From Exilibacterium tricleocarpae (GTDB lineage: Bacteria; Pseudomonadota; Gammaproteobacteria; Pseudomonadales; Cellvibrionaceae): a stretch of DNA of 64,000 bases. Shown here one piece after another: positions 51,219 through 63,418 of the stretch. The translations under genes were made by a program, and so were the position numbers. Under the pieces are notes generated by a model, which was given only the letters and a program-made list of their open reading frames with translations, ran no database searches and had not been told where the DNA came from. The first letter of the stretch is position 1, and every line of letters begins with the position of its first letter. The stretch covers positions 62,001-126,000 of the forward strand of contig NZ_ML660097.1 in assembly GCF_007004655.1 (NCBI RefSeq), given 5' to 3'.

Positions 51219-53873
51219 TTAATACTGTAACCTTGCCCCCAGACTGAAACGGCTGCCGTTTTCATAAAAACCGACGGGGATGCCGTCGCTGGTGCTCTGG
51301 TAGATAACCTCGTTGGTGATATTGACGGCACTGAGGAAGATATCGACCTGATTGGTGGCCTGCCAGGTAAAGGTGGCATCCCACTGGTCGTAGTCGTCAG
51401 TGGCGATCTGGGAGCCGGAGACCAGGGTGCCGAAGGACTCGGAGCGATAGTTGTAGGACAGGCGGGCGCTGAAGCGATCATCTTCATAGTAGATCGAGGC
51501 GTTGGCCTGGTTTTCGGAGTTGCCCGGCAGTTCCAGCCTGCCCACTTCGCGGGCCACGTCGGCGTCGGTATACGTATAGTTGGCGGTGATGCCGAAACCC
51601 CGGCCGAGCGGGTGTTGCAGTTGCAGCTCCAGACCCTGGATATCGGCGCCGTCGGCGTTGAACGGTCGGGTGACGGTGAGCGTCTGGCCATTGAAGTCTT
51701 CGGTCTGGGTTCTGTTGACGATAAAGGTGGACAGGTCTTTGACAAAGTAAGTGGCCGAGACAATGGCGGCCTCGTCGTAGTACCACTCTATGCCCACCTC
51801 AAATTGATCGGCAGTGGTGATGTCCAGCAGCGGATTGCCGCCCGAGGCCGTGCCGGTGGTGGCGTTGATCACCAGGTTGGCACTGAGGTTCTGAAACGTG
51901 GGGCGCGCCATCACCGTGGCGATCGCGCCGCGAACAATAAGGTCGTCGCGCAGGTTGTACGCCAGATTAACGCTGGGCAAATACTCGGTGTAGTCCCGTG
52001 TCACTGTGGCCAGAGCGCCGTCCTGAAAGGCTTTGGAAGTCTGGTCGGTCTGCACCGCGCGCAGGCCGATGTTGCCGCGCAGCTCACCCTGCTCGAAGCT
52101 GGCTTTGGCATACCAGGCGGTGATTTCTTCGTTGATATCATAGAACGCATTCTGGTCGACCGCGTAGCTCATGACGCCCGCGTTCAGGAGCGTGTCGACC
52201 TGTTGAATCGCCTTGCGGCGGTCGAGAAAGGCGTAACGTGTCAGTGAACCTGAAGAGGCGGTTTCGCCGTGCAGTCTGGGCGAGGGGCCGGAAGACAGAT
52301 CGTCCAGTGTCAGCGCCGCCAATGCCGCCACTTCGGCGGCGATGGCCGGGTCGTCGATATCGATGCTGCCCACCCTGCGGTTGTTTTCGATGGTGTGATC
52401 GCGCCACTTGCCGCCGACTTTCAATGACGTCACCGGCCCCCAGTTGACATCGATTTCGAGATCGCCCTGCAGGTAAAACTCATCGTCTTCCATAATCCGA
52501 ATCCAGTCGCGCAAGCTGCCCGGCTGCAGGGCCAGCGCCCGGCCGTCGAGGGGATCGATATCGGGGAAGCTGAATTCGTTGGTATTGGCACTCAGGTTAA
52601 TCACCTCCCGGGTGTTGCCCTCGAACCAATAGTTGCGATCGTGGGTGCTGCCGCCCTCGGCCTCGGTAAAACCGGTCTGCACATGGGCTTGCCAGCCGTC
52701 GCCCGTATAGGTGACATCCAGATCGTACACCGTCGATTCAATAAACGCATCGCGATAGATGGGCTCATCGGCGACGCCGACACTGGCGGGGTTTTCGATG
52801 GTGCCGCCCACCAGTGCCTGGCGCCCGTCGCTGGTGGGAATGAATACCGGGTTGGTGACGGTATCGCCGTTGGCAAGTTTGAAACCGCCGGTGACAAACA
52901 GGTAGTTCTGATTGCTGTTGTCCATACCCATATCGGAGTTGACATAATTGAACACGGCGTCCCAGGCCGATGTCGGCCGCCATTGCAGCGTGAGGTTGGT
53001 TGTGTCGCGCTCGCGTTGCTGCTGAAAAATAGCCGAGCCGCCGCCCCAGACGGCGTAGACATCTTCAGTAACCGCGCCGTTTTGGTCGGTTACGTCGTAG
53101 AGCGTGTTGGTGGGAAAGGCCTCCAGGCCATCGCGACGCACGCTGCGCTCCTGGCGGTTGAAAGAACCCAGCACGGCAAACGTTTCAGCGGCGTTTTTCC
53201 AACTGAGCAGGGCGGAGGTCTGCGGGTCCCACTCATCGGGCAACTCGCTGTACTGTCCTTCCACGCTGCCGCGCAAGGTCAGCGGTTCCAGGTCCATGGG
53301 CCGGCGCGTGCGCACGATGACGGTGCCGCCGATGCTGCCTTCGTCGAGATCGGCTTGCGGGCTTTTATAAACCTCCAGAGACGACACCAGTTCCGAGGCG
53401 AGAATGGAGTAGTTAAAGCCGCGGCTGGGATTGTCATTGGCCCACCAAAACGCCGAGGCGACATTCTGGCCGTTGAGCAGCGTGCGGTTGACCTCACTGT
53501 TGGTGCCGCGCACAAAAATATCGCGGCCTTCACCCCAGATGCGGTCGACCGAAATACCGGGAATACGCTGCAGCGAATCGGCGACGTTCTTGTCGGGAAA
53601 TTTGCCGATATCTTCGGCGTTGATGGCATCGACGACCGCATCGGCGTTCTCTTTCACCGCCAGTGCGCGCCTCAGGCTGCCCCGAATGCCGATGACCTCC
53701 AGTTCTTCAACGATTGGCGCGGCGCCGGCCGCGGCAGCGGCCGGCTGTGCGTGGGCGGTATTGACCGTACCGACCGCAGCCAGTGCGCCCAGCGAGCCGT
53801 AAGCCAGAACGGTGGTGTTGAACCAGCGGATCGCGGTTCCCAGTTTAGTGGGAGTCATTGTGGTTTTTTTCAT
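51219..53873 (-). CDS. TonB-dependent receptor (no signalling domain), paralogue of the next receptor
   Basis: The 884-residue outer-membrane receptor belongs to the TIGR01782-type group common in Xanthomonas, Caulobacter and Cellvibrio. After the signal peptide (ending NTAHA) comes VEELEVIGIRGSLRRALAVK, a TonB-box region, then the plug (INAEDIGKFPDKNVADSLQR, LNGQNVASAFWWANDNPSR) and a long barrel ending in SLGARLQY. It is very similar to the receptor at 54044-57064 in the plug but lacks that protein's N-terminal STN domain, so it should transport without signalling. The ATG at 53873 follows AGAGGAAAAG; the frame extends to 54047 without support. It is 170 bases after its paralogue. Confidence 0.92.
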   Translation of the reverse strand: MKKTTMTPTKLGTAIRWFNTTVLAYGSLGALAAVGTVNTAHAQPAAAAAGAAPIVEELEVIGIRGSLRRALAVKENADAVVDAINAEDIGKFPDKNVADSLQRIPGISVDRIWGEGRDIFVRGTNSEVNRTLLNGQNVASAFWWANDNPSRGFNYSILASELVSSLEVYKSPQADLDEGSIGGTVIVRTRRPMDLEPLTLRGSVEGQYSELPDEWDPQTSALLSWKNAAETFAVLGSFNRQERSVRRDGLEAFPTNTLYDVTDQNGAVTEDVYAVWGGGSAIFQQQRERDTTNLTLQWRPTSAWDAVFNYVNSDMGMDNSNQNYLFVTGGFKLANGDTVTNPVFIPTSDGRQALVGGTIENPASVGVADEPIYRDAFIESTVYDLDVTYTGDGWQAHVQTGFTEAEGGSTHDRNYWFEGNTREVINLSANTNEFSFPDIDPLDGRALALQPGSLRDWIRIMEDDEFYLQGDLEIDVNWGPVTSLKVGGKWRDHTIENNRRVGSIDIDDPAIAAEVAALAALTLDDLSSGPSPRLHGETASSGSLTRYAFLDRRKAIQQVDTLLNAGVMSYAVDQNAFYDINEEITAWYAKASFEQGELRGNIGLRAVQTDQTSKAFQDGALATVTRDYTEYLPSVNLAYNLRDDLIVRGAIATVMARPTFQNLSANLVINATTGTASGGNPLLDITTADQFEVGIEWYYDEAAIVSATYFVKDLSTFIVNRTQTEDFNGQTLTVTRPFNADGADIQGLELQLQHPLGRGFGITANYTYTDADVAREVGRLELPGNSENQANASIYYEDDRFSARLSYNYRSESFGTLVSGSQIATDDYDQWDATFTWQATNQVDIFLSAVNITNEVIYQSTSDGIPVGFYENGSRFSLGARLQY

Positions 53874-54043
53874 CTTTTCCTCTGCGCCTGGTAAGTGGGG
53901 TAACCTGTTCCATAGCTGTAAACGGCGGGCGGGGAAAAATCCCGCCAGGGCAGCGTTCGGTGTAGTCCTTTGGCGTGGGGAAATCATGGGGGAAGGCCGG
54001 CAAAGACTACTGTGTTGCGCCGGCGTGCAGTAGGCGCGTGCAC

Positions 54044-57000
54044 TCAAATATTCAGGCTGATGCCAATAATAAAACGCCGGCCGTTTTCGTAAAAACCCTG
54101 CGGCACACCGCTGGCGGTGCGAAAATAAATCGGTTCGTTACCCAGGTTGACGCCCTCCAGGTGCACCGATAGCCGCGGGGTGGGTGTCCAGCTAATGGCG
54201 GCATCCCACTGGTCGTAGGCTTCCGTGACATCCTGGGAGCCGGCGTTGAGGCCGCCGAAAGAGTCGGAGCGATAGTTGTAAGACAGTCGCGCGCTAAAGT
54301 GCCGGTTTTCGAAATACACCGAGCTGTTGAGCTGATCCCGGGAGTTGCCGGGCAGCGTCGCCGTTTCGCCGCCGGCACCGGCCGTCACCGATGCATCGGT
54401 GTATGTGTAATTGCTGGTGACACCGAAACCTCTGCCCAGGTCCTGTTGCCATTGCAGCTCGATGCCCTGTATATCTGCGCCCGCGCCATTGTAGGGACGG
54501 GTGACGTTGAGGGTCTGGCCGGCAAGCGTCTCCGGCAGTGTGCGGGTAGTGACCAGGGCGGCTATATCCTTGCGAAAATAGGCGGCGGATAACACCGAGG
54601 CCTCGGCAAAGTACCACTCAATCGCCAGATCAAATTGATTGGCTCGAACGGGTTCCAGGTGCGGGTTCCCCCCCGCCGCGGTGCCGTTGGTGGCGTCGAT
54701 GATAATACCCGGCGTCAAGTCCTGAAAATTCGGTCGGGCCATAACCCGGGCCAGGGCGGTGCGCAGAGTGAGGTTGCGCGCGAGCTTATAGGCCAGGTTT
54801 AAGCTCGGCAGGTAGTTGTGGTAGGGGCGCAGGTGACGGGTGAGCTGCGTATTCTGGTAAGCCGCGGCACCTTGCTTGGTGTGGACTGCGCGCATGCCGA
54901 TATTGCCGGAGAGCCTGTTGGTTTCGATATCGGCCTTGATATAAGCGCCCAAAATACGTTCGTTGATCCGGTAGAAAGCGTCGGTGTCGTAGCGATAGCT
55001 GAGCAGTCCCCGGTCGAATAACGGCTGCAAACTTTGTGCGAGACGGTTGCGGTCGGCCCAGGCGTATTGCGTGAGGGAGCCGGCGCTGGCGGTCTTGCGG
55101 TGCAGGTGGGGTGTCAGGCCGGCGGAGACCTGGTCCAGGCCGATGGCTTGCGCCGCCGGCCAATCTGCGTGAGCGGTATCGACGCTGCCCACGGTGCGGT
55201 TGTTTTCGATCGTATGATCGCGCCACTTGGCGCCGACCTTGATGCGGTTGATAAAAGGCAGCTTGTCGAATGCCCAGCTCAGATCCCCCTGTAAGTAAAA
55301 CTCCTCGTCGCGCATTTCGCGAATCCAGTCGCGCGAGTCGCTCGACAGGCGCTGCAGGGCTGCCGGATCGCGGGGATCGAGGTCGGGAAAGTCAAATGCC
55401 AGCCGGCGCGGGCCAATCGCATAGGATAGCTGGGTATCACCGATAAAGCGGTAGCGCCGGTCGTGATCGCTACCGCCTTTGGCCCGGGTGACACCCATCT
55501 GCCAGTGAGAGCGCCAGCCGTCGGCGTCGTAATTCATATCGAGATCGTAACTGGCGGTCTCGACATAGGCGTCACGGAATATTGCATCCAGTGCCGCGCC
55601 GGGACTGTCGGCATTGCCAAACGTGCCGCCGAGCAGGGTACGCACGCCGTCGCTGGTGCCAATCTGTGCGGCGCTGACCGGTACCGGCGGTATCTCGTTG
55701 AGTTTGAATGCACCCGGCAGGGCTAGGTAATTCTGGTTGCTGTTGTCCATATCCATATGGGTAAGCACGGCGTTGAAGGCGATATCCCAATGCGGGTCGG
55801 CGGCCCATTGCAGTGTCAGGTTAGCGCTGCGGCGGCGCCGCTCCTGTTGAAAGATTGCCGACCCCAGGCCCCAGGGCACGCGAACCCCCTCGATAAGATT
55901 GCCGTCGGCTTCTGTAAGAGTGTAGAGCGCGTGGTCGGGGAAAGCCTCGAGCCCGTCGCGGCGCAATTGCCGCTTTTGTAGATTGAATGAGGCCAGGGCG
56001 CCGAAGGTGCCGGCAGTGTTTTTCCAACTGAACAGCGCCGCGGCCTGCGGGTCCCACTGGTCGGGCAGCTCGCTGTACTGCTGTTCCAGCGAGGTGCGTA
56101 GCGTACCGGCGGCCAGGTCCAGCGGCTTGCGGGTGCGAATGATTACCGTACCGCCGATGCTGCCCTCATCGACATCGGCCTGCGGGCTTTTGTGAACCTC
56201 CAGTGATGCGACCAGCTCCGAGGCGAGGATGGAATAGTTGAAGCCGCGGCTGGGGTTGTCGTCGGCCCACCAGTAAGCGGAGGCGACATTCTGGCCATTG
56301 AGAAGGGTGCGGTTCACATTCTTATCGGTGCCGCGAATATTGATATCGCGCCCCTCGCCCCAGATGCGATCCACGGAGACACCGGGAATACGTTGCAGGG
56401 CATCGGCCACATTCTGGTCCGGAAACTTGCCGATATCCTCGGCGGTAATCGCGTCCACAGCCGCATCGGCGTGGCGTTTGATAGAGAGACTGCGCGCCAG
56501 GCTGCTGCGAATCCCGGTAACCAGCACCTCTTCGATCGCGCTGTCCCGCGGAACAGTCTGTACTGCCGGCGCGGCGGGTGCCGGTTTTATCGTCTTCAAG
56601 CGTTGCCGGGCGGGGTCCCGATACACCACCAGCACCTGTCCGCCGCCAAAACGATAACTGAGCCCGCTGGTGTGCAGCAGATGCTCCAGAGCTTCGGTCC
56701 GTGAATAAGCGCCGTGCAGCGGCGCCACCGTCAGTTCGGGCAGTTGTTCGCTGCGAAACATGATCTGCAGGTTGGATTGTTCGGCATACTGTAACAGGGC
56801 GGTAGCGAGTGGCTGTCGTTTGATCGCGTAGTTAAGAATATCGGTAAAGGTATCGGAAAAAGTATCGGAAAAAGTATCGGAAAAAGTATCGGTGACGGCC
56901 TCAGTGCCGGTATCAGTGGCCCCGTCGGCGGCGAGAACGGTGCTGCACAGCAAAGCCGCGGCAAGGGCGGCCGGTATCCGCCGTGCAAACCGGTTGAGGT

Positions 57001-57064
57001 GGTGAGCAGGGCTGCGCGCTGAGCCGCATCGCTCAAGTAATGCTCTTATATGGCCTGGACCCAT
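54044..57064 (-). CDS. Signal-transducing TonB-dependent receptor with secretin/STN domain (FecA-like)
   Basis: The 1006-residue protein has a basic N-terminus and hydrophobic segment (IPAALAAALLCSTVLA), a repetitive acidic linker encoded by 12-base repeats (DTFS units, residues about 60-75), then an STN domain (about residues 83-140; ATALLQYAEQSNLQIMFRSE, GAYSRTEALEHLLHTSGLSY). The plug follows (ITAEDIGKFPDQNVADALQR, WWADDNPSRGFNYSILA) and a barrel ending GISLNI. STN receptors contact a FecR-type regulator. A FecI-type sigma factor and FecR gene diverge from it. Ligand unknown. The ATG at 57064 lacks a clear Shine-Dalgarno sequence, so the exact start is uncertain. Confidence 0.92.
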   Translation of the reverse strand: MGPGHIRALLERCGSARSPAHHLNRFARRIPAALAAALLCSTVLAADGATDTGTEAVTDTFSDTFSDTFSDTFTDILNYAIKRQPLATALLQYAEQSNLQIMFRSEQLPELTVAPLHGAYSRTEALEHLLHTSGLSYRFGGGQVLVVYRDPARQRLKTIKPAPAAPAVQTVPRDSAIEEVLVTGIRSSLARSLSIKRHADAAVDAITAEDIGKFPDQNVADALQRIPGVSVDRIWGEGRDINIRGTDKNVNRTLLNGQNVASAYWWADDNPSRGFNYSILASELVASLEVHKSPQADVDEGSIGGTVIIRTRKPLDLAAGTLRTSLEQQYSELPDQWDPQAAALFSWKNTAGTFGALASFNLQKRQLRRDGLEAFPDHALYTLTEADGNLIEGVRVPWGLGSAIFQQERRRRSANLTLQWAADPHWDIAFNAVLTHMDMDNSNQNYLALPGAFKLNEIPPVPVSAAQIGTSDGVRTLLGGTFGNADSPGAALDAIFRDAYVETASYDLDMNYDADGWRSHWQMGVTRAKGGSDHDRRYRFIGDTQLSYAIGPRRLAFDFPDLDPRDPAALQRLSSDSRDWIREMRDEEFYLQGDLSWAFDKLPFINRIKVGAKWRDHTIENNRTVGSVDTAHADWPAAQAIGLDQVSAGLTPHLHRKTASAGSLTQYAWADRNRLAQSLQPLFDRGLLSYRYDTDAFYRINERILGAYIKADIETNRLSGNIGMRAVHTKQGAAAYQNTQLTRHLRPYHNYLPSLNLAYKLARNLTLRTALARVMARPNFQDLTPGIIIDATNGTAAGGNPHLEPVRANQFDLAIEWYFAEASVLSAAYFRKDIAALVTTRTLPETLAGQTLNVTRPYNGAGADIQGIELQWQQDLGRGFGVTSNYTYTDASVTAGAGGETATLPGNSRDQLNSSVYFENRHFSARLSYNYRSDSFGGLNAGSQDVTEAYDQWDAAISWTPTPRLSVHLEGVNLGNEPIYFRTASGVPQGFYENGRRFIIGISLNI
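56839..56898 (-). repeat. Five 12-bp in-frame repeats in the receptor linker
   Basis: Units TATCGGAAAAAG on the plus strand (CTTTTTCCGATA on the coding strand) repeat five times and encode DTFS units between the signal peptide and the STN domain. Confidence 0.88.
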
Positions 57065-57373
57065 AGTGTGATTGAAAATACAGGAAATAATTATAGTTAG
57101 CCGTGATTATAATAACGGAACCGGCCACTGACTCCCGACAAAAATACGGCGATGCCTGTCGGGTTTATGGCCGCGGTTGCGTTTACAGGGGGGAGGTTAT
57201 GCGCAACAAGGGGTCCAGAGCCCCGGGGCCTGCAGGTTCAAGAGTCAAGGGTTGTAGGGTGCACGTATTAGTATCGAGCCTTATGCCGGTCCCGGTTTAC
57301 AACAAAATACTGCTTACTTGAACGCTGTTGCAAAAGCAACCGTATCAAAAGAAGGCTGTGATTAGGGCAAGCA
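57065..57373. other. Intergenic region between the divergent receptor and sigma-factor genes
   Basis: These 309 bases must hold the promoters of the receptor operon and the sigma/anti-sigma operon. A short hairpin (GTTGC, AAAA, GCAAC) lies near 57329. No gene was recognised. Confidence 0.5.
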
Positions 57374-57985
57374 ATGGCGTCAGTGAGACCGAAACTATCA
57401 GCCGGACCGCGACTCAGGGTTGTCGGGCAAACCCAGCGTGGCGCAAACGGCGACGGCGCTGAGGAGGGCGTGTCCGGACCGGATCCCTATATCGAAACCC
57501 TGTACGAAAAATACCGCTGCAGCCTCCTTAACTATCTGACCGGGCTCTTGCCCGGGGGGCGCCAGGACGCATACGAAGTCCTCCATGAAACCTATATTCG
57601 TTTACTGAAACAGGACAACCTGGAGCGACTGGAGGAAAATGCGCGCGCCTATATCTTTACGGTGGCCACCAACCTGGTGCGCGATGCGCTGCGCCGTCGC
57701 GGCAGTCGCCGTGCCGATGCCCACATACCCTTCGAGGAAGGCGAGTTTCCCAGCACTGCGCCATCGCCGGCCCGGGCGGCGGACTGGGAGCAATCCCTGG
57801 CTAAACTGAAACGGGAGTTGTTGAAACTGCCTGCGAACACCCGACAGGTGTTTCTGTTGAGCCGGTTCGAGGAAATGACCTATCCGGAAATTGCCCGTGC
57901 CCTGAATATCAGTACCCGTACCGTCGAGCGGCATATGGCCACGGCAGTCAGGAAGCTGCAGAACTCGCTGGAAGACCTGTTATGA
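57374..57985 (+). CDS. ECF sigma factor, FecI-like
   Basis: A 203-residue extracytoplasmic-function sigma factor. Region 2 (about residues 40-105) includes YIETLYEKYRCSLLNYLTGL and DAYEVLHETYIRLL. Region 4 (about 140-200) includes LPANTRQVFLLSRFEEMTYP and a helix-turn-helix (IARALNISTRTVERHMATAV). The gene overlaps the FecR gene by four bases (ATGA), so the pair is translationally coupled. With the STN receptor on the other strand it forms a complete cell-surface signalling set: receptor, anti-sigma factor, sigma factor. The N-terminal 35 residues are extra and not conserved. Confidence 0.92.
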   Translation: MASVRPKLSAGPRLRVVGQTQRGANGDGAEEGVSGPDPYIETLYEKYRCSLLNYLTGLLPGGRQDAYEVLHETYIRLLKQDNLERLEENARAYIFTVATNLVRDALRRRGSRRADAHIPFEEGEFPSTAPSPARAADWEQSLAKLKRELLKLPANTRQVFLLSRFEEMTYPEIARALNISTRTVERHMATAVRKLQNSLEDLL

Positions 57986-59001
57986 ATATATCTGCGCAAA
58001 CCGCTCGGGCAGATCGGCGCCGAATCAGGCAAGAGGCGGCGGCCTGGTATGCAAAATTGAAATCTCCCCGCTGCGACCGGGCTGCTCGCCGGGCGTTTAA
58101 GCAGTGGTTGGCGCAAAGCCCGTTGCATGAACTGGCTTATGAACAGTGCCGGGCCCTTTGGGATATAAGCGGTCATCTAGGTGCCGATGGTGATATTCGC
58201 CGGGAGTTAACCGCTGCGCAGGCGACAGCGGCCGACACTGGCCGCAGGCGCGCCGCGGCTGCGCGCTATCTGCAAGTGGCTGCCGTCGTTGTGGTGCTGG
58301 TCGCCGGGGGTTGGTTTGTCACCGACAACCGGTCAGTGGACATCTATGGCACGGGGGTTGGGGAGCATCGCCTCGTTCGTCTCGATGACGGCTCGACCGC
58401 TCTGTTAAACACCGATACTGTTATTGCCGTCAACTACAGCCGCGCCGCCCGCCGCCTCGAACTGCGCCGGGGCGAAGCGTTTTTTGCCGTGGCGGCGGAC
58501 CCGCAACGACCTTTTGAAGTCGCCGCTGCTGGCAGTGTCGTCAGGGCGCTGGGCACCGAGTTCAATGTGCTGCTGCGCGCTCGGGCGGTCTCGGTTACGG
58601 TGGCGGAGGGCGTGGTGGAACTCGAGGGACGGCGGGGACCGGATGGGGTACCGCGAACACAAATCGAACGGGGAGAGGCCGCCACTTACCATGACGATGG
58701 TGTTACACCCGCCATTGAGCCGGCCGAGCTGGAACGTATCACTGCCTGGAGGAATAGCAAGATTTACTTTAAATCCAGCCGCCTGGCCGATGCGGTGCTG
58801 GAGTACAACCGCTATACCCGCACACCGATTGAAATTCTGGATAAAGACCTGGAGGACCATTTGATTTCGGGCATTTTCCAGGTTGGGGATTTGACCGCGT
58901 TTGTTTTCTCGCTCGAACAGCTACTGGACGTGCGGGTGGTCAGAGATAACGACCGCATCTATCTGATGCGCAGAGTGCGGGCCGCTCACCCGACCGGGTA
59001 G
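57982..59001 (+). CDS. FecR-type anti-sigma factor/transmembrane signal relay
   Basis: The 339-residue protein has an N-terminal cytoplasmic domain (DUF4880-like, RIRQEAAAWYAKLKSPRCDR and AFKQWLAQSPLHELAYEQCR) that would bind the sigma factor, one membrane helix (about residues 95-112; YLQVAAVVVVLVAGGWFV), and a periplasmic FecR domain (about 120-215; HRLVRLDDGSTALLNTDT, RRLELRRGEAFFAVAADPQR, VRALGTEFNVLL) with a C-terminal STN-binding lobe (ADAVLEYNRYTRTPIEILDK). It is coupled to the sigma factor gene and should relay the state of the STN receptor. Substrate unknown. Confidence 0.92.
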   Translation: MNISAQTARADRRRIRQEAAAWYAKLKSPRCDRAARRAFKQWLAQSPLHELAYEQCRALWDISGHLGADGDIRRELTAAQATAADTGRRRAAAARYLQVAAVVVVLVAGGWFVTDNRSVDIYGTGVGEHRLVRLDDGSTALLNTDTVIAVNYSRAARRLELRRGEAFFAVAADPQRPFEVAAAGSVVRALGTEFNVLLRARAVSVTVAEGVVELEGRRGPDGVPRTQIERGEAATYHDDGVTPAIEPAELERITAWRNSKIYFKSSRLADAVLEYNRYTRTPIEILDKDLEDHLISGIFQVGDLTAFVFSLEQLLDVRVVRDNDRIYLMRRVRAAHPTG

Positions 59002-60988: not shown

Positions 60989-61894
60989 TCATTCCCCCTT
61001 CAGCTTCCGCAGCAGAGTAGCGCGGGAGACGCCAAGCATTTGCGCCGTCCTCGACCGATTACCCCCACAAGCGTTTAAGGCTTTCGCGATCAGTAGTTGG
61101 TCGAATTTACCTCGCGCCTCGCGCAAGCTCGTGGACTCTGTGTTGAACGCGATCCTGCGAAGCGTGATGATGCTGCTATGTTCCTCGGTCGCCGGAAACC
61201 AGCACAAAAAATTGAATAGTCGGGTTTCCCGCTCCGTGTAAACCAGGACACCCATTAGAAAAGTGACAGATACGCTGCCCCAGACGGCGGCATTGACCTG
61301 CAGGCCCAGTCGCATCGCCGCAGCGACACCAAATGCGGTGAGGACGATAGGAGCGACCCCGATCGCCATTGCTAATGATCGCCGGCGTCCAATGAACTCG
61401 GAGCCCGTCCTGGCGGTGTAGATAAGCGTGGTCAGTGAGCCCAACATCATGCCGACGATAACAACCTGGAGGGCGTTATAGTAGGGCCCTCCAACCCGGG
61501 TGATCGAGTAGCCAATACTTTTGGCGCCCGCGATCGCGGCATTGGGTATAACCAGCAGCACGATGCAGGTCAGGGCCAGGGCCGCCAGTAGGATTGTGAG
61601 CGAGACATGCTTGTAACCGCCGATATCGAGCGCCAGGCCGAGTAACGTAATACCTGTGGCGGACAAAAAGAGATATGCACCTATCATGACCAACAGTCCA
61701 TCTTCCGGATGGTTGGCGTAGGCGAACGATGCCAGCTCGGTAACGGTCATACCGAACATGGAAACCAGGAATGCCAAAAACCACGGATTCATTGTTTTTA
61801 TTTGCCGGCGGCCATACCAGAATATAACCGCCTTTATAGCCAGCGCCGTAATGCTCGGCGTGGCGTATATCAGTAAATCATTCCACCCTGACAT
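60989..61894 (-). CDS. Seven-helix membrane protein with C-terminal Fis-type DNA-binding domain
   Basis: The 301-residue protein has seven hydrophobic segments: about residues 8-29, 38-61, 66-93, 98-124, 140-163, 173-198 and 202-223. A cytoplasmic linker leads to a Fis/NtrC-type helix-turn-helix at the C-terminus (LLIAKALNACGGNRSRTAQM, then LGVSRATLLRKLKGE). There is no kinase, AAA+ or receiver domain, so this is a one-component membrane regulator with its DNA-binding part in the cytoplasm. Its start at 61894 lies 25 bases inside the ketosynthase gene, with GGAGCGG upstream, so the two are translationally coupled. Ligand and targets are unknown; the neighbour suggests a small lipid-like signal. 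Confidence 0.8.
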   Translation of the reverse strand: MSGWNDLLIYATPSITALAIKAVIFWYGRRQIKTMNPWFLAFLVSMFGMTVTELASFAYANHPEDGLLVMIGAYLFLSATGITLLGLALDIGGYKHVSLTILLAALALTCIVLLVIPNAAIAGAKSIGYSITRVGGPYYNALQVVIVGMMLGSLTTLIYTARTGSEFIGRRRSLAMAIGVAPIVLTAFGVAAAMRLGLQVNAAVWGSVSVTFLMGVLVYTERETRLFNFLCWFPATEEHSSIITLRRIAFNTESTSLREARGKFDQLLIAKALNACGGNRSRTAQMLGVSRATLLRKLKGE

Positions 61895-62868
61895 ACTGAA
61901 ATTCCGCTCCCTGCTCCTAGTATCAACAATTTATCGCCCCGGCTAGGGGGGGTGAGCGCCATGGCCACAGGTATAGTGGCGCTGGTCAAATTCCCGAATT
62001 TTTCATAGGTGACCGGGGCCCGGCTGACATCGAGGTGCGCCGCGGCGATCATGCGCCGGTGAGGTGCTGATCCCGATTGATGCAAGTAAGCCCAGTCAAC
62101 ATCCCCTGGCGCCCAGCCGAGGCGGTCATAGGTGTTGCCAATCATCTCCTCGTGGAGGTCCAGCACCGCGGAGGTGATCTCGCTCATGAGCATGTGACCT
62201 GTTATGCCCTTGTCGGTGCGCTTATAGTGACATAGCTCGGCGTGCTGACCCCGTGAGCATAACCGCAAATTGCGCCAGCCACTACGGTCATCTGAACGCT
62301 GTATCACCATTGCGCCACCCGCGTCCCCGGCCGAGAGCATGCCGACCCATTTTTTGAACAGCTCCCGGCTCCGCACTTTTTTCAGTTTATGCACATATTC
62401 GTACATCACATCGCTCGGCCGCTCCCCGGTACAAACCAGCACATTATCGACCATGCCGGCGGCGATAAATGCGTCGGCTACGGCCATCCCGTCGATAAAA
62501 CCGTGACAGGCGTTAGTAACATCCAGGCAACTGGCATTACGGGCACCCAATAGGGACTGGACGCGATGTGCGGTTGCCGGCTCCTGCCAGTCCCGGTCGA
62601 TACCACAGAACACAATAAACCCCAAATCCTCAGGCCTGATGCCAGCGGCCTCGATTGCCCGCTGCGACGCCGCACAGGCCAAATCTGACGGTGCCGTATC
62701 CCGATCGCATACCCTGCGTTCCCGAATCCCCAGTGCCTTATCCATGTAGGATTTGGAAACACCAAACCTTTCACACCCGATTTCCTCCATGATCGATGCT
62801 GAGTCGACGACGGTGGCCGGCAGGTATGCGCCTACGCCGGCGATTTTAGAAACCCCAATAAACTCCAT
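61870..62868 (-). CDS. Atypical ketoacyl synthase III (FabH-like)
   Basis: A 332-residue thiolase-fold enzyme. The FabH-type triad is Cys121 (DVTNACHGFIDG), His263 (YLHQSGSAPHRR) and Asn293 (FGNLTSATIP). The HQSGS in place of HQAN, and the tail VCQGGMIY, set it apart from housekeeping FabH. fabY already provides the initiation step, so this copy probably makes a special product, as PqsD, DarB and related KAS III enzymes do. AGGAG is nine bases before the ATG. It overlaps the downstream regulator gene by 25 bases and is divergent from an unknown gene. Confidence 0.87.
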   Translation of the reverse strand: MEFIGVSKIAGVGAYLPATVVDSASIMEEIGCERFGVSKSYMDKALGIRERRVCDRDTAPSDLACAASQRAIEAAGIRPEDLGFIVFCGIDRDWQEPATAHRVQSLLGARNASCLDVTNACHGFIDGMAVADAFIAAGMVDNVLVCTGERPSDVMYEYVHKLKKVRSRELFKKWVGMLSAGDAGGAMVIQRSDDRSGWRNLRLCSRGQHAELCHYKRTDKGITGHMLMSEITSAVLDLHEEMIGNTYDRLGWAPGDVDWAYLHQSGSAPHRRMIAAAHLDVSRAPVTYEKFGNLTSATIPVAMALTPPSRGDKLLILGAGSGISVCQGGMIY

Positions 62869-63061: not shown

Positions 63062-63418
63062 ATGCGATTTACGGGGAGGGGCCCACGCCCGGGGGATTGG
63101 CTATACAAACCGGGCAATCTGGAGCAGCTCCTTGAACATTGGGAGAAACAAGGCGGATTCTGGGTACCGAAAAAGGAAGGCGGGTCCACCGGGCTCACTC
63201 TCCGGGCGGTGATTCGTACCGAATCGATTAGCGGCCTGCCGCTGCATGCGGTCGTGATAGCCCGGACCTACAATAAAGCACCTTGGCGATGGTTTGGGGT
63301 TTTTCTAGGCGAGCCGCCGGCGGTACGGTACCCGATCCAAGTCCTGGTTATCAAAAAGCTTCCCGATGAACCGGACGATTTGTACTGGCACCCGAGCAAG
63401 CAACTGCCGGCGGGTTGA
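63062..63418 (+). CDS. Hypothetical protein
   Basis: A 118-residue soluble protein without signal peptide or membrane segment, rich in Trp, Gly and Pro (GDWLYKPGNLEQLLEHWEKQ, GGFWVPKKEGGSTGLTLRAV). The pattern of beta strands with a conserved-looking WRWFGVFLGEPPAV suggests a compact fold, but I do not recognise a family. It diverges from the ketosynthase gene; the 193-base gap holds the candidate operator and a dyad near 63040. The ribosome binding site is weak. Confidence 0.55.
   Translation: MRFTGRGPRPGDWLYKPGNLEQLLEHWEKQGGFWVPKKEGGSTGLTLRAVIRTESISGLPLHAVVIARTYNKAPWRWFGVFLGEPPAVRYPIQVLVIKKLPDEPDDLYWHPSKQLPAG

Follow-up and report, generated by a model that had tools for sequence, protein, structure and literature searches.

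We found a pair of overlapping genes in Exilibacterium tricleocarpae that we read as a two-gene chemical signalling module, comprising a signal synthase and a kinase-free membrane receptor that is itself a transcription factor; we put the probability of this reading at roughly 58%. Signal and receptor provide the best explanation because a synthase that seems to work alone stands nearly always beside a membrane DNA-binding protein, because spare regulators occur, and because single genomes carry several divergent pairs. Adjacency alone fits equally well a regulator that merely controls its neighbour, and the main rival is control of a lipid that is not a signal.

The window, the whole stretch of 64,000 nucleotides that was analysed, corresponds to C11:62001-126000 of the 7.18-Mb E. 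tricleocarpae genome. The ketosynthase gene (61870..62868, minus strand) encodes 332 amino acids with a KAS III fold of the OleA/PpyS-like type carrying Glu96, as judged from the open reading frame (ORF) list, Pfam, PDB matches and an AlphaFold2 model. The regulator gene (60989..61894, minus strand) encodes 301 amino acids, assigned from the ORF list, an HTH_8 match, topology and a model to a seven-helix membrane (7TM) domain, linker helices and a Fis-type helix-turn-helix (HTH). By the ORF coordinates, the two reading frames share 25 nt (61870..61894, minus strand). The first-pass annotation had given these coordinates and the overlap correctly; its title described the two proteins as fused, which was wrong, as these are two overlapping genes. 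The 25-nt overlap is also present at the other two copies in the same genome (L011 7912-7936 and L010 11141-11165) and likewise at L041, L044 and L047, with starts taken from the longest ORFs. Since an identical overlap recurs in the genome's own copies and in these three loci, the pairing is far beyond chance. Divergent from the ketosynthase, the window encodes a 118-aa protein (63062-63418, plus strand) with no Pfam match, and a 135-aa relative of it lies near the lone C8 regulator of the same genome (L012 1171-1578). Read from the translations, 51219-59001 of the window holds tandem large TonB-type receptor genes by a sigma-factor-like and a FecR-like gene.

The enzyme matched ACP_syn_III (E 1e-12) and ACP_syn_III_C (E 1.2e-11) in Pfam. 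All 20 NCBIfam families listed for it scored under their cut-offs, the highest being PRK09258 (184 bits versus 285), and the curated cut-off for FabH (TIGR00747) was not reached (132.3 bits versus 292.1). The top PDB sequence match was OleA, at about 25% identity, and OleA was also the closest fold (4kti; VIA Z 44.0, rmsd 2.1 over 327 residues) to the AlphaFold2 monomer model (pLDDT 93.9); the VIA Z was 41.8 to FabH and 41.4 to PqsD. The KAS III triad was reported as intact by the first-pass annotation, and Cys121 (codon 62506..62508), His263 (62080..62082) and Asn293 (61990..61992), all on the minus strand, are indeed invariant, together with Glu96 and Pro97, in 33/33 rows of an alignment that excluded the broken or cut ketosynthases of L062, L081, L082, L084, L085 and L088.

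Glu96 (62581..62583, minus strand) occupies the position of OleA Glu117 and PpyS Glu105. In the PDB sequence alignment it pairs with the glutamate of the OleA motif LEPSTA, which was counted 26 residues ahead of the cysteine, matching the distance from E117 to C143. A phenylalanine stands there in E. coli FabH, and a tyrosine in the other KAS III of the genome. In excerpts of Kresovic et al. 2015 (PMC4578411), OleA E117 is the base and reaches into the partner's active site, photopyrone is lost in PpyS E105A, and photopyrones are quorum-sensing signals bound by PluR. The invariance of Glu96, its alignment with OleA and the effect of E105A, as excerpted there, count in favour of signal and receptor. 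The same excerpts describe OleA as belonging to olefin synthesis; OleA shares the glutamate and yet serves that pathway, which counts against our reading. Among the features of the head-to-head class (OleA, PpyS and PyrS), the Cys-His-Asn triad and, by its presence only, the catalytic glutamate were found. The marker residue for head-to-head condensation is therefore present, and the enzyme probably joins two fatty chains head to head. One further KAS III was detected in the genome with PF08541, a 406-aa ORF that we take to be FabH2-like, with adjacent genes presumably of biotin synthesis. We rejected a housekeeping FabH as the identity of the window enzyme: the group is sporadic (7/369 genomes), which argues against a housekeeping role, scores far under the FabH cut-off and carries Glu96.

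The genome contains two more ketosynthases of the group, on C8 (56% identity) and C5 (55%), each overlapping a regulator paralogue by 25 nt. Of the six regulator copies, three are paired, one stands alone on C8, and two form a tandem that precedes the C5 pair by about 3 kb. Elsewhere, regulators are doubled behind one ketosynthase in G032, G034, L081 and L086. Such extra and doubled regulators resemble receptor sets such as LuxR solos. Among 58 genomes, comprising this one and its relatives, the ketosynthase (counted at E 1e-40 or better) was found in six, all of which also had a regulator matched over the membrane part; in six of the 13 genomes with a match to the regulator, the match was confined to the HTH, and these were left out of the count. 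G001, from the same genus, has a membrane-part regulator without a ketosynthase of the group.

A broader survey covered 369 genomes of the class, our own included, and scored at most the 5 to 7 best candidates per genome. The ketosynthase (E 1e-60 or better) was present in 7 and the regulator membrane domain (E 1e-10 or better) in 8, with all 7 shared. The domain therefore occurred in 7/7 KAS III genomes versus 1/362 others, the association that the first-pass annotation had proposed to look for; the Fisher p of 5e-14 takes no account of relatedness, and the 7 genomes with the ketosynthase belong to 4 genera. The eighth regulator genome gave a weak match, beside a more distant KAS III (L101).

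The regulator domain was also present in 33 of the 38 named KAS III loci, which had been found by ketosynthase motifs. This count includes two partial membrane domains (L060 at a contig end and the fragment in L084), several loci from the same organism, and L078, in which the regulator lies on the opposite strand beyond another gene. At three of the five loci without a regulator (L074, L082 and L088), the contig ends at or just past the ketosynthase, and no regulator was found in the L088 genome. L069 has one regulator elsewhere in its genome and none adjacent to its ketosynthase, and for L087, whose ketosynthase is only 30% identical, no regulator was found at the locus or in its genome. The sources of the named loci include Pseudomaricurvus, Marinomonas, Motiliproteus, a Pseudohongiella MAG and many further MAGs, and the pair recurs side by side across a range of gammaproteobacteria. 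The two genes lie on the same strand in 43/45 pairs, the exceptions being L078 and a convergent pair in G200 C17. The co-occurrence and the 33/38 loci count for signal and receptor; the regulator without a ketosynthase in G001 and the ketosynthase without an adjacent regulator in L069 count against. Two further loci stand out. In L080, two divergent ketosynthases are each followed by their own regulator, with a second regulator on one side. L074, from a MAG labelled Nitrospirae, carries a group ketosynthase with 39% identity on a contig that ends 420 nt past the gene.

Chance pairing in one genome was rejected on the recurrence in relatives, in the named loci and in the 369 class genomes. A plasmid-borne module was rejected as well: of the 320 plasmid records with some KAS III that matched the ketosynthase, none reached 60% identity, and the top-ranked had 31.5%. 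Clustering by BLAST (E 1e-8, 60% of the shorter length) across 14 neighbourhoods, of which 10 contain the pair and 4 only a regulator, revealed ten other recurring gene clusters, each in only two loci. A larger biosynthetic cluster was rejected, since none of these ten was found in more than two of the 14 neighbourhoods.

The two proteins diverged together. Ketosynthase and regulator distances were correlated with r 0.857 over 45 pairs, the maximum of 2000 label permutations being 0.235, and nearest neighbours agreed in 31/45 pairs. Excluded from this test were 24 loci, among them duplicates (L095, L096, L113 and L114, which look the same as L051/L076), those with a cut (L047) or frame-broken (L062, L081, L084 and L085) ketosynthase, a cut regulator (L060) or no adjacent regulator (L069, L074, L082, L087 and L088), and the weak G351 pair (L101). 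Part of the co-divergence stems from shared vertical descent. The divergent pairs inside one genome nevertheless suggest that the two genes are duplicated or moved together. Co-divergence counts for the signal and receptor reading.

The regulator has a seven-helix membrane domain (residues 3-219; 61238..61888, minus strand), assigned through the PF16927 matches of relatives and fold comparison. A periplasmic beta-hairpin between TM4 and TM5 is predicted from the AlphaFold2 model and conservation (residues 121-135; 61490..61534, minus strand). The Fis-type three-helix DNA-binding domain (residues 257-299; 60998..61126, minus strand) is supported by the model and by HTH_8 (Fis) at residues 264-299 (E 2.6e-11), and Pfam gave no named domain over cut-off in the membrane part of the window protein. 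Hydropathy averaged across 30 regulators gave seven membrane segments; with the HTH_8 match and the AlphaFold2 model, this upheld the architecture described in the first-pass annotation. In these 30 regulators, Lys and Arg abound in loops 1, 3 and 5 and on the C-terminal side but not in loops 0, 2, 4 and 6; this charge pattern predicts an N-out, C-in topology with a cytoplasmic HTH. The AlphaFold2 model from a 30-row alignment (mean pLDDT 90.8, pTM 0.84) likewise places the HTH inside, with seven helices, an outer-side hairpin, linker helices and a three-helix HTH, so that an HTH outside the membrane, which would have spoken against the first-pass annotation, is not what is predicted.

The most conserved positions among 65 membrane domains are E53 (64/65), G136 (63), N50 (61), K21 (61) and Y139 (61). 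The window regulator keeps E53, G136, K21 and Y139 and deviates with Thr50 for Asn and Ala73 for Tyr; its lack of some conserved membrane positions counts against signal and receptor. The outer half of the membrane domain accounts for 108 of all 210 positions and for 14 of the 19 most conserved ones (p 0.035, and p 0.0016 by a rank test), a modest bias. Together with the N-out/C-in model and the upstream dyad described below, this bias counts for signal and receptor.

PF16927 (HisKA_7TM) was matched by 21/30 regulators at E 0.01 or less, and three relatives exceeded its cut-off; the window regulator itself gave no match to this profile. These results suggest that the 7TM domain is a divergent HisKA_7TM domain. 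The first-pass annotation knew of no described system of this kind; the combination of a 7TM domain with a Fis-type domain beside a KAS III is indeed undescribed among the literature matches listed, whereas the sensor itself has known relatives. HTH_8 was matched by 25/30 regulators and not by the other 5/30. Five long relatives of 484-846 aa (in L077, L078, L079 and L085) carry extra soluble sequence ahead of the HTH, with AAA+ traces below cut-off in that of L079. A histidine kinase with an overlooked kinase part was rejected, since Pfam detected no kinase domain in the window regulator, the 30 scanned members or the five long relatives. In L067 6066-6947 (the same as L045) and L053 5939-6910, the membrane domain is kept and the HTH looks degraded by eye. 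These seemingly degraded HTHs and the 5/30 without HTH_8 count against signal and receptor. L078 1332-4320 encodes a 7TM-...-Fis protein (771 aa stop to stop) divergent from the ketosynthase, and a neighbouring 225-aa protein, also divergent from it, reads like an HD-type phosphohydrolase.

The predicted arrangement of the 7TM domain appears to resemble that of G-protein-coupled receptors (GPCRs). Its VIA Z to mGlu2 was 18.3 (rmsd 3.1 over 209 residues) in a comparison without a bacterial 7TM control, Z values of 13-14 being the tool's level for helical bundles, and the best 50 fold matches were GPCRs or designed GPCR-like folds. The best Foldseek E was only 1.6e-3, and the lack of microbial rhodopsins among those best 50 proves nothing. 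We take this as a likeness of predicted shape, not kinship, and claim no homology.

Upstream sequences suggest what the HTH may bind. The dyad YTTCA-N4-TGAAR was found within 250 nt upstream of the start in 14/50 regions (49 of ketosynthases and one of the lone G001 regulator), 0.14 being expected by shuffling: 10/15 regions of one group (0.02 expected) and 4/35 others (0.12 expected). Start codons were in part assigned by eye, with some doubt over that of L070. The 15-region group is where the dyad was first noticed, so the count there is after the fact, and three of the four positives outside it (G000 C5, L080a and L086) were seen before counting. TTCA/TGAA with a spacer of 4 occurred in 14/50 regions and with any other spacer from 0 to 11 in at most 3. 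Across 48 loci (502 kb), TTCAN4TGAA occurred at 27 places, 15 of them within the 12.5 kb of upstream sequence, where 0.31 were expected from the rest. This pattern suggests that a regulator of the family may bind the dyad in an autoregulatory loop. The dyad was not found in the window's own 250-nt upstream region; its absence from 31/35 regions outside the group, this one included, counts against signal and receptor. So does the regulon search, in which the exact longer dyad AYTTCANNNNTGAART was found at only two places in the whole genome, one upstream of the C5 ketosynthase and the other on C4 with no clear target, so that no regulon was seen. Two further sequence features were observed. Upstream of one L080 ketosynthase, two dyads share arms (ACTATTCA/TGAATAGT). 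In 8/15 group loci (L054, L055, L057, L061, L064, L065, L066 and L068), the only copy of the palindrome TGTAGGA-N5-TCCTACA in the locus lies some 190-240 nt ahead of the ketosynthase.

On the signal and receptor reading, the ketosynthase would load one acyl chain on Cys121, and Glu96 would take the alpha proton, so that the carbanion could attack a second acyl (or beta-ketoacyl) thioester. The head-to-head beta-keto product may then yield a pyrone by cyclisation or a ketone by decarboxylation, and, being lipophilic, would exit into the membrane or the medium. The seven-helix domain would recognise it from the periplasmic side, beneath the conserved beta-hairpin, and its last helices would transmit the change to the Fis-type HTH in the cytoplasm. 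The HTH, presumably dimeric at the membrane, would then act on transcription of its own operon, in a positive or a negative loop, and presumably on other targets. The first-pass annotation had proposed a signal synthase beside its receptor; Glu96, the regulators without an enzyme and the conserved outer face strengthen that proposal, in which we still infer both product and ligand.

The main rival is a self-contained lipid-product module, in which the regulator senses envelope state or acyl supply rather than the product, and switches on the neighbouring enzyme, whose hydrocarbon, ketone or pyrone would be structural or antibiotic. Such local control would make adjacency and overlap self-explanatory, and would suit both the position of the dyads upstream of the ketosynthase and the role of the nearest solved relative, OleA, as an olefin-pathway enzyme. 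However, no third gene family accompanies the pair in the 14 neighbourhoods, where the other clusters appear in two loci each, and it would lead one to expect neither surplus regulators that have no enzyme nor several divergent pairs in a single genome; the outer face is, moreover, modestly more conserved. We consider this module unlikely. Intracellular feedback, in which the regulator binds the product in the membrane of the same cell and keeps its level constant with no communication between cells, has to account for regulators that exist without an enzyme and for conserved residues biased to the periplasmic side. We regard it as distinctly improbable, even though the lipophilic products of a head-to-head condensation would tend to enter the membrane, co-divergence and overlap fit, and the exact dyad is nearly absent elsewhere in the genome. 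Finally, another KAS III reaction (a FabH-like decarboxylative condensation or acyl transfer) that supplies special acyl chains, with the regulator tuning fatty acid make-up, is very improbable: the fold scores of FabH and PqsD are only slightly under that of OleA, but every alignment row has Glu96, against a Phe in E. coli FabH, and the occurrence of the group is sporadic.

The pair, read as signal synthase and receptor, shares features with several known systems. PluR is soluble, whereas the putative receptor here would cross the membrane with seven helices, carry a Fis-type HTH and have its gene beside that of the synthase. PpyS/PluR of Photorhabdus luminescens is nevertheless alike in that, in excerpts of PMC4578411, an enzyme of KAS III fold with an OleA-type glutamate makes a signal for a dedicated receptor-regulator, the LuxR-like PluR. 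OleA, from the olefin pathway of Xanthomonas campestris, is the closest solved structure and shares the Glu, Cys, His and Asn positions, but the identity is only about 25%; we know of no membrane regulator beside it. Kinases with HisKA_7TM sensors share the PF16927 profile with 21/30 of the regulators; unlike them, the output here is a DNA-binding Fis HTH, and no HisKA or ATPase domain was matched in the regulators scanned. ToxR/CadC/TcpP-type regulators are also membrane proteins that bind DNA directly without a phosphorelay; they have one membrane helix and a winged-helix N-terminus, in contrast to the seven helices and C-terminal Fis HTH described here. In RpfF/RpfC and CqsA/CqsS, the synthase gene likewise adjoins that of a multi-helix membrane receptor; these receptors are histidine kinases with a relay and the synthases are crotonase-fold and PLP-dependent enzymes, whereas our pair has no histidine kinase and a synthase of KAS III fold.

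The pair is undescribed among the literature matches listed, a search to which subscription papers and preprints were mostly inaccessible. In excerpts of a 2026 review (PMC13220807), the word ketosynthase is confined to the list of references, and pyrone signals are linked with PluR. We propose tentatively, at somewhat below even odds, that the pair represents a class of cell-cell signalling new to the literature found, in which a GPCR-shaped seven-helix transcription factor senses a head-to-head lipid outside the cell without a kinase, a G protein or a soluble receptor; the 7TM-Fis form may descend from longer relatives of the type 7TM-(soluble insert)-Fis that lost their central portion.

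If this is true, bacterial communication would gain both a class of signal and a type of receptor, and a seven-helix receptor would be seen to act on DNA without an intermediary. The finding would also provide a ligand for one branch of the HisKA_7TM domain, and a ready assay, with two genes and one reporter, to identify the product. The several pairs and spare regulators per genome would permit the study of cross-talk.
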